This document shows positions 21,595 to 32,125 of a stretch of 32,342 nt of DNA, one piece after another (within the stretch, counting starts at the first letter, position 1; every line of letters starts with the position of its first letter). Below the pieces are notes generated by a model that was not told where the DNA came from, did no database searches, and worked only from the letters and a program-made list of their open reading frames with translations. Position numbers and translations under genes: made by a program. The stretch is from Candidatus Woesearchaeota archaeon (GTDB lineage Archaea; Nanobdellota; Nanobdellia; Woesearchaeales; UBA525), in the NCBI GenBank assembly GCA_014874255.1, contig JACWAN010000106.1, forward strand, positions 1-32,342. The letters are read 5' to 3'.

Positions 21595-22440
21595 TCATTC
21601 CCAGCCAGGCAAGAGCTTCAGGCGGTTCGTCTTGTAGAACGGCTCCTTCCTGACGACGCCCTTCTCCTCGAGCTTCCGCACCACCTTGCTCATCTTTGAT
21701 TTGGAGAAGCCGGTCTCGGCGCAGAGCGCCTTCTGCCGGTCCACGCCGCGCTTGACGAGCGAGACGATCAGGAGTTCGTCCTCGCCGAGGGCGCCGAGCA
21801 AGGCTTTCTTCTCCACCGCGTGGCGTCGGCGCCAGACGACGGCGACGGCCGCGAGCGTGACGATGAGGAGCGAGCCGAGGATGACTGGCGCCCAGGGGAA
21901 CGAGGGCCCGTCATAGAGGACGATGATCGGGAGTTCGCTGACGCCTTCCTCGTGCCAGCGGAGCGTGATCGTCCGGCCGTCGGTACCGATGCTGTCGGGC
22001 GTCGGGCTCGCCGCCGCGTCGGCGTGGGCGAGGGCGAACCCTTCGGGCAGGGTGACGTTCACGTCGAGCGATGCGTTGTCGACGGGCTTGAGGCGGAGGG
22101 CGAACGCGCGGGAAGCGCCCTGCTGCGTGACGAGGCCGTCGAACAAGAGGGTGAAGGAGACGTCGTTCTTCCCGGGGACGAGGCTCTGGTTCAGGACGAG
22201 GAGAACGCCGTCCGGCTGGTCCTGTTCGGCGTACCCCTTGTCGAAGAGGACGGCGAGCGGCCGTTGGTCGAGACGGTAGTCGACGGCGTCGTAGGCTCCG
22301 TCCGAGTCGATGGAGAGGGTGATCCGCTCCTCCGCGACGTTGTTGCTGTGGAGCGTGATGTCCACCGCCTGGTGTTCCACGACTCCGAGCGCGACGGGGA
22401 GGAGCATGAGGACTAGCAGGAGATACAACGCACCCTTCAT
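21595..22440 (-). CDS. exported ectodomain-TM-winged HTH protein (membrane-tethered regulator)
   Basis: Signal peptide, beta-rich ectodomain, TM (VILGSLLIVTLAAVAVVW), cytosolic wHTH (LCAETGFSKSKMSKVVRKLEEKGVVRKEP). Confidence 0.82.
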   Translation of the reverse strand: MKGALYLLLVLMLLPVALGVVEHQAVDITLHSNNVAEERITLSIDSDGAYDAVDYRLDQRPLAVLFDKGYAEQDQPDGVLLVLNQSLVPGKNDVSFTLLFDGLVTQQGASRAFALRLKPVDNASLDVNVTLPEGFALAHADAAASPTPDSIGTDGRTITLRWHEEGVSELPIIVLYDGPSFPWAPVILGSLLIVTLAAVAVVWRRRHAVEKKALLGALGEDELLIVSLVKRGVDRQKALCAETGFSKSKMSKVVRKLEEKGVVRKEPFYKTNRLKLLPGWE

Positions 22441-25308: not shown

Positions 25309-26238
25309 TCACTCCTCGACGTCCTTGAGGAGCGCGACCTTGTAGTTCCTGCCGATCTTCTCGCGCTGCACGATCCGCTTGTATTCCAGGTTCGACATAA
25401 TTGCGGAGACCTTGGACTTCGACCACCCGAGCGTCCTGCCGACCTCCTTCTGGCTCATCGGTCCTTTGTTCCCGCGCAGCGCCGCGAGGATGGCCTTCTC
25501 GTCGGGGCTCAGCAGGGAGGAGGGGACGGCGGGGAGTTCCGGCCGACTACGCCTGAGCATCGCGCGCCGCCGATGATCGAGCGCGACCCCTGCGACTGCG
25601 CCGAGGAGGAGCGCGGCCCCCATGAAGAGCCAGACTGGCCACTCACTGAGTTCCTGGCGGACCTCCTGCCACGTCCCGAAGGATTCGAGGCCGTGGTAGA
25701 GGACGTAGTAGCGTATCGGCAGCTGCGGCGACTGCGCAGCCCAGGTGATGATGATGCGCTGGCCGTCGGTCGTCATCGTCGTGGGCGAAGGCACCACGGG
25801 CGGGTCCGTCCGGTCGCTGGCGCCGACGCCGTAGCCGTTGGGCAGGGCGACCGTGTAGCGGAGGCTGCGCGGCGCCGAGGGCAGGTTGAGGGTCCGCGAG
25901 AAGGTGAAGGAGCCGCCCTGGACCGGTTGCGCTGCGTCGCGGAGCGCGTAGGCGATCGAGACCTGGCATGTGGTGCAGGAGAGCGGGACCGTGACCGTGC
26001 CGTTCGCCGTCGTGGTCGCGTGGCCGTCCGCGGCGACGGCGACCGCTCCTTCAGGGAGGATGAAGGTGAACGATGCCTGCGTATTGTCGAGGAGCTGGAG
26101 CGAGACCGTCTCCTGGACTGAGAGGTCCTCGAAGAGCGTGTCGTTGATCCCGACGGCGCCGATTGTGGCTGCTTTCGTGAAGGGGAGGAGCAGGAGGATG
26201 GTTATGAACCATGCCGCCGCGAGCCACGTCTTCGTCAT
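25309..26238 (-). CDS. exported ectodomain-TM-winged HTH protein (membrane-tethered regulator), paralogue of 21595-22440
   Basis: Signal peptide, ectodomain with TVALPNGYGVG...TDGQRIIITWAAQSPQLPIRYYVLYHG, TM (WLFMGAALLLGAVAGVAL), wHTH (SQKEVGRTLGWSKSKVSAIMSNLEYKRIVQREKIGR). Confidence 0.82.
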   Translation of the reverse strand: MTKTWLAAAWFITILLLLPFTKAATIGAVGINDTLFEDLSVQETVSLQLLDNTQASFTFILPEGAVAVAADGHATTTANGTVTVPLSCTTCQVSIAYALRDAAQPVQGGSFTFSRTLNLPSAPRSLRYTVALPNGYGVGASDRTDPPVVPSPTTMTTDGQRIIITWAAQSPQLPIRYYVLYHGLESFGTWQEVRQELSEWPVWLFMGAALLLGAVAGVALDHRRRAMLRRSRPELPAVPSSLLSPDEKAILAALRGNKGPMSQKEVGRTLGWSKSKVSAIMSNLEYKRIVQREKIGRNYKVALLKDVEE

Positions 26239-26384: not shown

Positions 26385-27206
26385 ATGAACCGGAAGGTGA
26401 AGGAGATGACGATGATGGTCAGGCGGAAGGGCGGTTACCTGTTGCTGACGCTCGTGGCGGCGCTCGCGGTCATGGTGATGGTGGCGGGCGCGGCGCGGGC
26501 CGTGCACGCGGACGATGACGGCGGTGACGCGTCGCAGCAACAGTACGCCACGCAACAGCAGGCGCAGCTCCAGGCGCAGCAGCGCACGGCGGAAGAGCAG
26601 GCCGCGGCGCAGGCCGCCACGCAGAACGAGACCGCGTCGCGCGGCGAGCAGGAGGGCGGCCGCTGGGACATCAGCCATGACTTCGGCGGGCAGAGCGGCT
26701 CCGAGCAGGAGGACGGCCGCGACAGCGCAGGCGACACGAACGGGGAGAACGGAATCCCGGACCAGATGAACACGACGGGGAACGTCACCCTCAATGACAG
26801 TCTGAACCTCAGCGACCTCAAGTACCTCAACTATACTGATCTCAACTCCACCAATCCCAACTACGCCAGTCTCAACTATACGGACTTCAACTCCGCCGAT
26901 TACGGCGTCAACGGCACCGGCGCGGACGGGAGCACGGCAGCCGACCTGCGGATCGACACGCCGGCGGACATCGCCGCGCGGGAGGCGGAGATCCGGAGCA
27001 TCCAGGCGGAGATGAACGTGTCGCAGGTGCGGATCGCCGCGGCGGAGCGGCAGCGGCAGAGCGCCGAACAGGCAATCGCCGCGCTCGGCGCCAACGCCAC
27101 GGACGGCGCCGGCAACGGCAGCGTCCAGGGTGCAGGGAACGCGACGGCGCCGGCAGCGCCGCCGTTCTTCACGCGGCTGCTCATGTGGCTGGGGATCGTG
27201 CATTGA
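26385..27206 (+). CDS. exported Q-rich, N-glycosylation-sequon-rich protein with LNYTD-type repeats, 273 aa
   Basis: Signal peptide; QQQYATQQQAQLQAQQRTAEEQAAAQ; LNYTDLNSTNPNYASLNYTDFNS; C-terminal hydrophobic FFTRLLMWLGIVH. Confidence 0.7.
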   Translation: MNRKVKEMTMMVRRKGGYLLLTLVAALAVMVMVAGAARAVHADDDGGDASQQQYATQQQAQLQAQQRTAEEQAAAQAATQNETASRGEQEGGRWDISHDFGGQSGSEQEDGRDSAGDTNGENGIPDQMNTTGNVTLNDSLNLSDLKYLNYTDLNSTNPNYASLNYTDFNSADYGVNGTGADGSTAADLRIDTPADIAAREAEIRSIQAEMNVSQVRIAAAERQRQSAEQAIAALGANATDGAGNGSVQGAGNATAPAAPPFFTRLLMWLGIVH

Positions 27207-27219
27207 AGAGGTGGTGGCG

Positions 27220-27351
27220 ATGGACGAAGAGAGAGCGTATGAGGAGATGGACGTCGAGAGCGCGGCAATCCGCGGCTACGAGGATGACGACGAGGACTGG
27301 GATCAGGCGGCGTCGTTCCTGCGCGGCCATCTCAGTATGGGGGAGCTGTAG
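27220..27351 (+). CDS. small acidic protein, 43 aa
   Basis: MDEERAYEEMDVESAAIRGYEDDDEDWDQAASFLRGHLSMGEL*; GAGGTGG SD; located inside a same-strand gene cluster. Confidence 0.55.
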   Translation: MDEERAYEEMDVESAAIRGYEDDDEDWDQAASFLRGHLSMGEL

Positions 27352-27414
27352 CTCGGGAAACGCTTTTCCGCCCCTGGCGGGCGTGGAAATGAACGTGGAA
27401 CGGAGGGGAGGCTT

Positions 27415-27651
27415 ATGACGAGATACCTGATCATCTTCAAGCGGAAGGAGTGCATCGGCGCTGCGGCGTGCGAGGCGGTGAGCCCGAAGCTCTGGCGGAT
27501 GCACGGCGACGGCAAGGCAGAGCTCAAGGGCGCGACGGTCAACCCGCGGACCGGCGACTACGAGCTCGAGATCGACGCGGCCCTCTTCGAGGAGCAGCGG
27601 ACAGCCGCGGAGAGCTGCCCGTCCGGGTGCATCCGCGTCGTGGAGGCGTGA
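27415..27651 (+). CDS. ferredoxin, predicted [3Fe-4S] type
   Basis: KECIGAAACEAVSPKLW...AAESCPSGCIRVVEA: C-x2-A-x2-C...C-P, second cluster Cys replaced by Ala. Confidence 0.82.
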   Translation: MTRYLIIFKRKECIGAAACEAVSPKLWRMHGDGKAELKGATVNPRTGDYELEIDAALFEEQRTAAESCPSGCIRVVEA

Positions 27652-27656
27652 GCCGC

Positions 27657-28511
27657 ATGGACGCGACGAGGACGTTCGCGCTGCTCGGCGGCGCCGTGAC
27701 GGTCGAGCTCTACGATGTCGAGGAGCCTCTCGCCAACCTCGTCTTCGACGAGATCGTGCGCGAAGGGCTGCGGCTGCAGCGCATCTTCAACCTCTATGAC
27801 CCTGAGAGCGAGCTCTCGGCCCTGAACCGGCGACGCGAGCTGCGCGCCTCGCCGGAGCTGCGCCTCGTCCTCGCGGAAGCGCTCCGGTTCTCGCGGCTCA
27901 CTGGCGGACGGTACGACGTGTCGAAGGGACGCGAGTTCCTCGCCCGGAAACGCGGCGACGAGTACACGGCAGGGTGCACGTTCGAGAACGTCGAAGTGGA
28001 CGGCGACATCGTCCGGCTCACGCACCCGGACGCGCTCGTCGACATGGGCAGCATCGCGAAGGGGTACATCGGCGACGCCCTCCTCGCCTTCATCGCGGCG
28101 CTGGGCGTCGAGAGCGCGTTCGTCGACGCGCGCGGCGACCTCCGCGTCTCCGGCTCCCGGCTCGAGGTCGTCCGGATACGGCACCCCCGCGACCCGGACG
28201 CGGTGACGGGATCGCTGCTCCTCGAGAACGCGGCCGTCGCGACCTCAGGGGATTACCGTCAGTATGTCGGGAGCTACGACCAGTCGCACATCGTCGGCGC
28301 CCGCGATTTCGCCTCGGTGAGCGTCGTCGCCCCCACGTTGATGGAGGCGGACGCCGTCGCGAGCGCGGTCTTCGTGCTCGGGAGCAGAGAGGCGCAAGCA
28401 TTCCTCGAGAAGCTGCCGCACGTGAAGGCGTTCGCCGTGGACACGGCGCTGCGCCGGCACCGGTACAACGGCTTCGGCGGGCTCGACGAGGGTGAGGGGC
28501 TTGGAACGTAA
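27657..28511 (+). CDS. apbE: FAD:protein FMN transferase (ApbE family)
   Basis: LQRIFNLYDPESELSALNR, LVDMGSIAKGYIGDALLAF, VATSGDYRQYVG, VSVVAPTLMEADAVASAVFVLG. Confidence 0.92.
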   Translation: MDATRTFALLGGAVTVELYDVEEPLANLVFDEIVREGLRLQRIFNLYDPESELSALNRRRELRASPELRLVLAEALRFSRLTGGRYDVSKGREFLARKRGDEYTAGCTFENVEVDGDIVRLTHPDALVDMGSIAKGYIGDALLAFIAALGVESAFVDARGDLRVSGSRLEVVRIRHPRDPDAVTGSLLLENAAVATSGDYRQYVGSYDQSHIVGARDFASVSVVAPTLMEADAVASAVFVLGSREAQAFLEKLPHVKAFAVDTALRRHRYNGFGGLDEGEGLGT

Positions 28512-29313
28512 GACGCTCATCCTCATCGTCGCGGGAGGGGTGACCGCCGCATTCTTCCTCGTCTTCTCCATGCTCGTCAGCACACAGCCCGCCATCTGGT
28601 ACGAGACGCGGATCTTCGGCCTGCTCGCGTACGCGGCCCTCTTCCTCACCGTCGTCATCGGCGAGCTCCGCATCCTCTCGAAGAACAAGGCGGCCACGGC
28701 GGGCATCTTCCGCTACCACAAGCCCGTCGCAATCTTCGCCACGTACCTCGTCGGCCTCCACCTCGTCGCGGCAGCGAACGACAACTTCAAGTGGGGGAAA
28801 GGGCTCTCCTTCCTCCAGTACCTCGGCTTCTCCTTCGGGGACAAGTGGCTCGTCCTCCTCTCCTTCGGCGCGCTCGCCTTCTACCTCATGCTGCTCGTCG
28901 GCCTCACCTCGCGGACGAAGGCGATCCAGCGGATCGGGTTCAAGAACTGGAAGCTGATCCACTACCTCAGCTACCTCTCCTTCGTCCTCGCATACGTGCA
29001 CAGCGTCGGCCTCGGCACGGACATCAAGTCCTCGATCCTCAGCCCCGTCCTCTCGCCCCTCTTCGTCGCCTCGTTCCTCTTCGTCGTCGCGCTCCTCCTC
29101 ACCCGCGTCGCGAACGGCTTCAACGTCCTCAGCGACCAGTGGGAGGTGAACCTCGCCGGGATCTTCTTCCTGCTGCTGCTCGGCGGCCTCGCCTTCCTCG
29201 GCTGGCAGGCGACGCAGGTGACAGCGCTCCAGACGGCGCTCGGCGCGGGACAAACGCCTGTCGTGACGGCCGTCAACGTGACGCAGCACGTGCTCGCGGG
29301 GGTGAGCGCATGA
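28492..29313 (+). CDS. ferric-reductase-like transmembrane protein (di-heme cytochrome b fold)
   Basis: Multi-TM with two bis-His pairs: H-x13-H in FRYHKPVAIFATYLVGLHL and H-x12-H in LIHYLSYLSFVLAYVHS. Start GTG 28492 or TTG 28501. Confidence 0.8.
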   Translation: MRGLERKTLILIVAGGVTAAFFLVFSMLVSTQPAIWYETRIFGLLAYAALFLTVVIGELRILSKNKAATAGIFRYHKPVAIFATYLVGLHLVAAANDNFKWGKGLSFLQYLGFSFGDKWLVLLSFGALAFYLMLLVGLTSRTKAIQRIGFKNWKLIHYLSYLSFVLAYVHSVGLGTDIKSSILSPVLSPLFVASFLFVVALLLTRVANGFNVLSDQWEVNLAGIFFLLLLGGLAFLGWQATQVTALQTALGAGQTPVVTAVNVTQHVLAGVSA

Positions 29314-29699
29314 GCAAAGCAATCTGGATCGTCGGGATTGCCATCCTCCTCGTGGTGTACGTCGTCGGCACGGTCTATCTCAGCCAGTCCACCAACCAGA
29401 AGGTGAGCGCGCTCCAGAGCGACGTGGCGCTCGCGAACGTGCGGCGCGACCAGTCGCAGCAGATGGCCGTGCAGCAGCTCGCCACGCAGCAGGCGCAGCT
29501 CGCGCTCCAGCAGGCGCAGCTCACCATCCAGGAGGAGCAGGCGAAGCAGGCGCAGCTCCAGGCGCAGCTCGACGCTCTCCTCGCACAGCCCGCCACAACG
29601 CAGACAACACCGGGTGCTCCGGCGGCGCAGCAGCAAGCGCAACTGGCGGCGCAACAGCAGGCCCTCGCGACGCAGCCCAAAGTGACCCGGGCATCCTGA
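29310..29699 (+). CDS. single-TM Q/A-rich coiled-coil protein, 129 aa
   Basis: ATGA overlap with the upstream gene; TM IWIVGIAILLVVYVVGTVYL then (QQAQL)-like repeats. Confidence 0.7.
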   Translation: MSKAIWIVGIAILLVVYVVGTVYLSQSTNQKVSALQSDVALANVRRDQSQQMAVQQLATQQAQLALQQAQLTIQEEQAKQAQLQAQLDALLAQPATTQTTPGAPAAQQQAQLAAQQQALATQPKVTRAS

Positions 29700-30790: not shown

Positions 30791-32125
30791 ATGGACTACG
30801 ACCTCATCGTCATCGGCGGCGGACCCGCGGGGATCATCGTCGCGACCAACGCGAAGCTGCGCCATCCGGAGAAGAAGGTGCTGCTCGTCAAGAGCGTCGG
30901 GAAAGGGGTGGTGCCATGCGCAATCCCCTACATGTTCAAGACGATGGACGACCCGGAGAAGAACCGGCTCGGCGACGCCGCCCTCGAGAAGAACGGCGTC
31001 GCGATCGAGGTCACGGAGGTCGTCGCGCTCGACCGGGGACGCCGTGCAATCACGACGGCGGAGGGTGAGACCTTCACCTATGAACGGCTCGTCCTCGCGA
31101 CGGGGTCGGAACCGGCCACACCGCCCGTCGACGGCGTCGGGAAGAAGGGCGTCTACGCGATCAGGAAGGACTTCGACTACCTGAAAGCGCTGCGGACGGA
31201 GATCGAGCGCGCCACTGACATCGTCATCATCGGCGGCGGCTTCATCGGCCTCGAGGTGGCGGACGAGCTCACCCGCTTCCCCGAGAAGAAGGTGACTGTC
31301 GTTGAATTCCTCCCGCGGGTGCTCGCAGGCTCCTTCGACCCGGAGTTCGCGGCGGCAGCGATGGCGGAACTGACCAAGCGGGGCGTCACAATCCTGGCCG
31401 GCACGAAGGTCGTCCGGATCAGGGGCGGGGAACGCGTCGAGGCGGCGGAGCTCTCCGACAAGCAGATCATCCCCTGCCAGCTCGTCCTCCTCGGAGCGGG
31501 GGCGCGGCCGCTGACGGGACTCGCCGAGAAAGCAGGACTGGCGGTCGACAAGGGCATCGTCGTCGATGAGCGGCAGCGGACGGCGGACGAGCGCGTCTTC
31601 GCGATCGGCGACTGCGCCGCGAAGAAGGACCTCTTCACGGGGAAGAGCGCGCCGGTCATGCTCGCCTCGACCGCGACCGCGGAGGCGAGGATCGCGGCCG
31701 GCAACCTCTTCGCAGAAGGCACGAGGAACAGAGGGACGATCGCCGCGTACTCGACGAAGATCGGCGACCTCGTCCTCGGAGCGGCCGGCATGACCGAGGA
31801 ACGCGCGCGGGAGGAGGGATTCAAGATACTCGTCGGGAAAGCGATCGGGCCGGACAAGCACCCGAGCTGCCTCGCCGGCATGAAGGAGCAGCAGACGAAA
31901 CTCGTCTTCTCCAAGGAGACCGGGCTCCTCCTCGGCGGACAGGTGACAGGCGGCGACTCGGTCGGAGAGCTGGTCAACGTCATCGCGCTCGCGATCCAGA
32001 AAGGGACGAAGCTGACGGAGCTGGAGACGCTCCAGGTGGCGACGCACCCCAAGCTGACCGCGGCGCCGACGACGTACCCGCTCGTCGTCGCGGCGCAGGA
32101 CGCTCACAAGCCGAGCAGCTTGTAG
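30791..32125 (+). CDS. CoA-disulfide reductase / NADH oxidase-like FAD-dependent oxidoreductase
   Basis: YDLIVIGGGPAGIIVATNAKLRHPEKKVLLVK, VPCAIPYMF (redox Cys), DIVIIGGGFIGLEVADELTRF, VFAIGDCA. Confidence 0.9.
   Translation: MDYDLIVIGGGPAGIIVATNAKLRHPEKKVLLVKSVGKGVVPCAIPYMFKTMDDPEKNRLGDAALEKNGVAIEVTEVVALDRGRRAITTAEGETFTYERLVLATGSEPATPPVDGVGKKGVYAIRKDFDYLKALRTEIERATDIVIIGGGFIGLEVADELTRFPEKKVTVVEFLPRVLAGSFDPEFAAAAMAELTKRGVTILAGTKVVRIRGGERVEAAELSDKQIIPCQLVLLGAGARPLTGLAEKAGLAVDKGIVVDERQRTADERVFAIGDCAAKKDLFTGKSAPVMLASTATAEARIAAGNLFAEGTRNRGTIAAYSTKIGDLVLGAAGMTEERAREEGFKILVGKAIGPDKHPSCLAGMKEQQTKLVFSKETGLLLGGQVTGGDSVGELVNVIALAIQKGTKLTELETLQVATHPKLTAAPTTYPLVVAAQDAHKPSSL

Follow-up and report, generated by a model that had tools for sequence, protein, structure and literature searches.

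The window analyzed here is a contig of 32,342 nucleotides (JACWAN010000106.1) from a Candidatus Woesearchaeota archaeon with a genome of 1.29 Mb. At positions 26385-29699 it carries an operon that encodes an ApbE-family flavin mononucleotide (FMN) transferase together with a small ferredoxin, a membrane protein with a ferric reductase-like domain (FRD) and a membrane-anchored stalk protein that ends in Thr-Arg-Ala-Ser (TRAS). We think it fairly probable that this operon encodes a transmembrane electron transfer chain ending in an FMN on the C-terminal serine of the stalk. We also lean, if only somewhat, toward viewing the stalk as a new class of ApbE substrate: a minimal flavoprotein that lacks a flavin-binding fold and would consist of nothing but a membrane anchor joined by a stalk or disordered tether to a TRAS tail with FMN on the last serine.

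The stalk gene (29310..29699, + strand; 129 aa) specifies a Gln/Ala-rich coiled coil, and the TRAS codons occupy 29685..29696 (+). We compared 20 stalk or linker proteins encoded beside an ApbE and found that all 20 end in [T/S][R/H]AS (T in 19 and S in one, R in 19 and H in one, A and S in all), while their median pairwise identity is otherwise 18%. All complete stalk genes terminate in [TS]RAS, apart from a single THAS, mostly behind basic residues. Besides the tail, these proteins have in common only a transmembrane anchor and a stalk or linker; Gln-richness is not conserved, and no Pfam family, FMN_bind (PF04205) included, matches any of them above its cut-off. The charges that flank the anchor predict, by the positive-inside rule, an N-in/C-out orientation in 20 of 20 cases. 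Long stalks free of Pro and Gly accompany FRD proteins with a C-terminal extension, and low-complexity linkers rich in Pro, Thr and Ser accompany fusions of the FRD to an FAD/NAD reductase (FNR).

The tail resembles the known ApbE acceptor motif, D-x-x-[ST]-G-A-[ST], in which FMN is attached to the final residue (PMC12052999) and which is also given as [ST]GA[ST] (PMC11334425). In all 20 proteins the tail has [ST] at position -3, Ala at -1 and [ST] at 0. Among the window's exported protein, ferredoxin, FRD protein and stalk, TRAS is the sole [ST]-x-A-[ST]. We considered chance occurrence of a C-terminal TRAS and rejected it: the host genome contains 29 loose matches to the pattern (44 in a reversed control), yet the stalk gene is the only open reading frame of at least 20 aa that ends in TRAS. 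A tandem stalk copy in Altiarchaeota (locus L063, 9165-9779) contains an internal VTGAS as well as YTRAS within a single protein; judged by its motifs, this paralog is a natural bridge between the two forms and possibly carries two flavins. The initial annotation had proposed the Q-rich proteins of the operon as an unrecognized acceptor. This idea holds for the last gene product, the most likely acceptor on sequence grounds, and fails for the first exported protein, which is acidic and contains no [ST]-x-A-[ST]; the closest approximation, DGSTAAD, does not end in S/T, and a tblastn search with the protein found no related stretch.

The ApbE gene (27657..28511, +; alternative GTG start at 27648) matches PF02424 at 6e-42 (144 bits against a cut-off of 25.6). 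Its AlphaFold2 model (pLDDT 90.8) is similar to ApbE/Ftp structures in Foldseek (E 2.6e-21 to TP0796, TM 0.86). The catalytic Ser, His and Asp are retained, with S197, H211 and D232 corresponding to S241, H257 and D285 of the V. cholerae enzyme, where H257 was pinned through the H257G entry 6nxj. By family, fold and catalytic residues, we assign the protein as an ApbE-family FMN transferase. The annotated absence of an obvious signal peptide extends to the whole clade, which has no N-terminal hydrophobic signal.

Three kinds of ApbE occur in this taxonomic order: lipoprotein ApbEs, several of which adjoin RnfC-like genes; unsignaled ApbEs whose neighbor is a divergent lipoprotein of FMN_bind-like type; and the unsignaled clade described here, which the tree sets apart with support of 100/99. 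Position 159 is Arg in 23/23 members of this clade versus Gly in 15/15 others (window codon at 28131..28133, +, within DARGD), and position 202 is Gln in 23/23 versus Arg in 15/15. The G088a and G546 proteins, which sit on long branches, carry both residues too. Nearly all clade members have a shorter segment behind the catalytic His, where most other ApbEs show [DN]PxTG. We found a TRAS partner in 20 of the 21 complete R159-type loci versus none of the 15 loci of other ApbE clades, for eight of which the flank examined spanned about 1.5 kb only (Fisher p = 2.9e-9); three further R159-type loci are cut by contig ends (G423, G491 and G546) and stand outside the 21. The ApbE and the tail stay together while the redox partner changes from FRD to FRD-FNR fusion to divergent FRD. 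Within the minimal-flavoprotein reading, we judge it slightly favored that the R159 clade is a co-evolved ApbE with altered motif recognition, and speculate about a contact between R159 and the tail or its terminal carboxylate.

The suggestion that these genes form an archaeal membrane electron transfer operon gains support from the conservation of the neighborhood in distant relatives, and the proposed search of archaeal genomes found it again in distantly related Woesearchaeota and in one genome each of Aenigmatarchaeota and Altiarchaeota. Close FRD homologs (48-52% identical) occur in only four of 144 relatives outside the host genome, with an adjoining ApbE in all four. Ten genomes of the same taxonomic order have a strong FRD match, and ApbE is adjacent in 10/10. 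The consistent gene order is a divergent DUF7343 regulator, an exported acidic protein, ferredoxin, an FNR-type reductase, ApbE, FRD and stalk. The FNR-type reductase is present in G010, G143, G078, G309, G423, G442, G443 and G174 and absent from the window operon, from the Aenigmatarchaeota locus L060 and from the Altiarchaeota locus L063. In G119, G086, G074, G439, G288, G186 and G346 the FRD is fused to FNR and a linker replaces the coiled coil. The tail is also kept in variant loci of G005, with a divergent FRD, and of G088, where the order is FNR, TRAS protein, coiled coil, FRD-like protein and ApbE. The same-family relative G009 is the Woesearchaeota isolate UBA10207. The distribution of the cluster is patchy, which suggests spread by horizontal transfer.

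The FRD protein (28492..29313, +; 273 aa) is a member of PF01794 (Ferric_reduct, 2e-8, 35 bits against a cut-off of 28). The histidine pairs noted in the initial annotation are H76-x13-H90 and H157-x12-H170, and all four residues are invariant in 13 homologs, pointing to a di-heme protein. No solved structure matches it in a sequence search, and its fold is nearest to STEAP1, with NOX5 also among the nearest, but the similarity is weak (best E 8.5e-3). In the AlphaFold2 model an extra C-terminal helix, residues 216-272, is prolonged as a stalk. The ferredoxin (27415..27651, +; 78 aa), assigned by Pfam Fer4_15 (4e-11) and alignment, has cysteines C13, C19, C68 and C72. The motif CIGAAAC is missing the second Cys of the usual CxxCxxC, an additional Cys occurs in CPSGC, and the family pattern is CIGA[GA]xC ... 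CPxGC, with the extra Cys shortly after CP. This arrangement suggests a [3Fe-4S] or unusual [4Fe-4S] cluster. The ferredoxin is a probable electron donor and the likeliest one in the window, since the window operon is without FNR. A candidate for a dedicated FNR elsewhere in the host genome, a single distant homolog (1e-19) that is hydrogenase- or sulfide dehydrogenase-like, was not convincing.

We propose that reduced ferredoxin would pass electrons to the four-histidine, di-heme FRD protein, and that in relatives NAD(P)H could feed this protein too, by way of an FAD/NAD reductase that is either free-standing or fused. ApbE would attach FMN through a phosphoester bond to the C-terminal serine of the TRAS tail, and electrons would leave the FRD hemes for this flavin. 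The stalk may pair with the helical C-terminal extension of the FRD and would act as a flexible tether that holds the flavin outside the membrane, where the tethered FMN could reduce an extracytosolic acceptor.

Several points weigh against this proposal. Flavinylation of the tail is a prediction from sequence. The Gly at -2 of the acceptor motif is replaced by Arg in 19 of 20 tails and by His in one; TGAS occurs only in the Altiarchaeota paralog. In a bacterial system, changing this Gly even to Ala cuts flavinylation by half (PMC12052999). Asp never occurs at -6, where the residue differs between tails and is usually R, P, K, A, V or I. Mutation of the motif Asp to Ala has a minor effect in published work, which also reports that Ser is accepted and that tags perform best at a terminus (PMC12052999). 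One locus, L047 of G043, has a clade ApbE with neither FRD nor TRAS protein nearby, and no T-R-A-S-stop pattern exists anywhere in the G043 genome. The tail might also bind ApbE or another partner while staying unmodified. Finally, ApbE is unsignaled while the tail is predicted to lie outside. This mismatch recurs in the FMN_bind-type lipoprotein pairs of the same order and is not unique to TRAS loci, so flavinylation may possibly precede export. The stalk tail probably works like an ApbE acceptor, to go by its register and its ApbE partner, but we do not call it a confirmed member because the defining Gly of the known motif is missing.

One alternative is a standard flavinylation system of the MsrQ-like/FRD kind. 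Its real acceptor would then be a conventional FMN_bind-type protein that lies elsewhere in the genome or is absent from the metagenome-assembled genomes, and TRAS would serve only as a docking motif. MsrQ-like and ApbE clusters usually do include an FMN_bind gene (PMC8238504), and several of the genomes searched are incomplete. As the initial annotation had stated, however, Pfam finds no canonical FMN-binding substrate domain in the operon, and PF04205 is found in none of the 23 genomes that carry this ApbE. We rejected PF04205 as the sole test and used a second, local FMN_bind-like model (A3), since PF04205 misses a divergent FMN_bind-like lipoprotein in G088. A3 yielded no convincing gene in 22 of the 23 genomes (three weak partial matches at 1e-4 to 1e-5), and its one strong match, in G088, lies beside a second, different ApbE. 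This genome-wide search was made with FMN_bind models; DUF2271, DUF3570, Flavodoxin_4, FMN_red and NqrB/RnfD fall outside its scope. With the tail in acceptor register and ending in a modifiable serine, we regard a conventional acceptor as unlikely. The initial annotation had named two outcomes that would speak against its proposal, a co-occurring FMN-binding substrate encoded elsewhere and a lack of synteny; neither was observed, because the neighborhood is conserved and 22/23 genomes lack a convincing FMN_bind gene.

Two other alternatives were considered. The same chemistry might operate with the stalk facing the cytoplasm, so that the tethered FMN relays electrons from ferredoxin or FNR to the FRD on the inside. 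The absence of signal peptides from ApbE, ferredoxin and FNR is consistent with this topology, and cytosolic ApbEs with cytosolic targets are known (PMC12052999). The N-in/C-out charge pattern argues otherwise, as do the exported acidic protein that belongs to the operon and the extra FRD helix, which would put the FRD stalk outside, and we find a cytoplasmic stalk rather improbable. Alternatively, a different enzyme, one that processes or sorts proteins by their C-termini, could act on TRAS, with ApbE modifying an unrelated cytosolic protein. The indirect case for tail flavinylation and the departure of [T/S]RAS from the canonical motif at Gly leave room for this explanation, but the tail follows the R159 ApbE clade alone while FRD type, ferredoxin, FNR and regulator vary, and we give it very little credence.

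As an observation on other ApbE loci, five of them (L054, L048, L050, L053 and L051) have an unsignaled ApbE that adjoins a divergent FMN_bind-like lipoprotein with an SG[SG]SLT motif, undetected by PF04205, and a small DoxX-like membrane protein is nearby in four of the five. G088 holds both a TRAS-type system and an FMN_bind-type system (L055 and L054).

The nearest described systems are the MsrQ-like (PF01794) clusters with ApbE and FMN_bind (PMC8238504). They likewise place a di-heme FRD-type protein beside apbE, have a fused or separate NAD-binding domain and are predicted to transfer electrons to an external flavinylated protein. The archaeal operon, in contrast, lacks FMN_bind, has a C-terminal tetrapeptide on a stalk as its proposed acceptor, has an unsignaled ApbE, and includes a ferredoxin. 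Known ApbE substrates comprise NqrC/RnfG, FMN_bind, DUF2271, DUF3570, Flavodoxin_4 and FMN_red proteins (PMC12052999, PMC8238504, PMC11334425). TRAS shares with them the [ST]-x-A-[ST] register and a modifiable last residue but differs in having no flavin-binding fold, Arg in place of Gly, no Asp, and a location at the very C-terminus, behind a basic patch. By position, the nearest acceptor is the trypanosomatid fumarate reductase, in which an ApbE domain flavinylates D(g/s)x(s/t)(s/g)AS at the extreme N-terminus (PMC8065229). Both cases involve a short terminal motif, an acceptor serine, which is a proposed one in the archaeal tail, and an intracellular ApbE, though the trypanosomatid motif is N-terminal in a soluble, fused enzyme, whereas the archaeal tail is C-terminal on a separate, membrane-anchored protein. 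The engineered 7-residue Flavin-tag (reviewed in PMC12052999) establishes that a short terminal peptide suffices for ApbE; TRAS would be its equivalent in nature, with an altered motif.

A survey of flavinylation reported apbE with no known substrate in about 4% of genomes, left out ApbEs without a signal peptide and noted that some ApbE substrates remain to be identified (PMC8238504). Our analysis names a concrete candidate acceptor for one group of unsignaled ApbEs. If the proposal is correct, ApbE recognition extends beyond Gly-containing motifs and a bare C-terminal tetrapeptide serves as a natural flavin carrier, a new and very small ApbE target that might provide a four-residue flavin tag with its own ApbE. 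It would also predict an electron export route for DPANN archaea, a group with a poorly understood energy metabolism. Our literature search turned up no report of a C-terminal TRAS and none that links ApbE to these archaea.

All six annotated + strand reading frames are present. Their tight spacing is borne out in part: a genuine ATGA overlap occurs once (29310-29313), GTGA may form another at 27648-27651, and ApbE and FRD overlap by 20 nt, whereas the first three genes lie 13 and 63 nt apart. The first gene (26385..27206, +; 273 aa) encodes the exported acidic, Q-rich protein, with an N-terminal signal and a C-terminal amphipathic RLLMWLGIVH. Such a protein occupies the same position in L036-L039, L056, L060, L081 and L128. 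Inspection by eye of the window, L036-L039, L056 and L081 copies identified a motif resembling W-D-[FIL]-S-x-D-F and, at the C-terminus, a helix with xWLG[IF]. Relatives have TSP3-like Ca-binding repeats; in the window protein, Asn-rich N-x-S/T repeats take their place. Pfam assigns no family to the exported protein, the stalk or the second reading frame (27220..27351, +; 43 aa, acidic). A tblastn search of 21 related loci gave no convincing match for the latter (best E 0.15), so it may lie outside the system; we rejected it as a component, and the annotated six-gene neighborhood is conserved except for this frame.

Upstream, a divergent, membrane-tethered winged-helix protein (25309..26238, - strand; DUF7343/MarR-like, Pfam DUF7343 2e-14) has homologs in 11 of 21 related loci (32-43% identity, tblastn) and likely regulates the operon. 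A second membrane-tethered DUF7343-type regulator lies about 4 kb upstream of the operon (21595-22440, -). The same contig also encodes an NDH-2-like NADH dehydrogenase (542-2059) and a CoA-disulfide reductase-like flavoenzyme (30791-32125), which are possible links to NADH.

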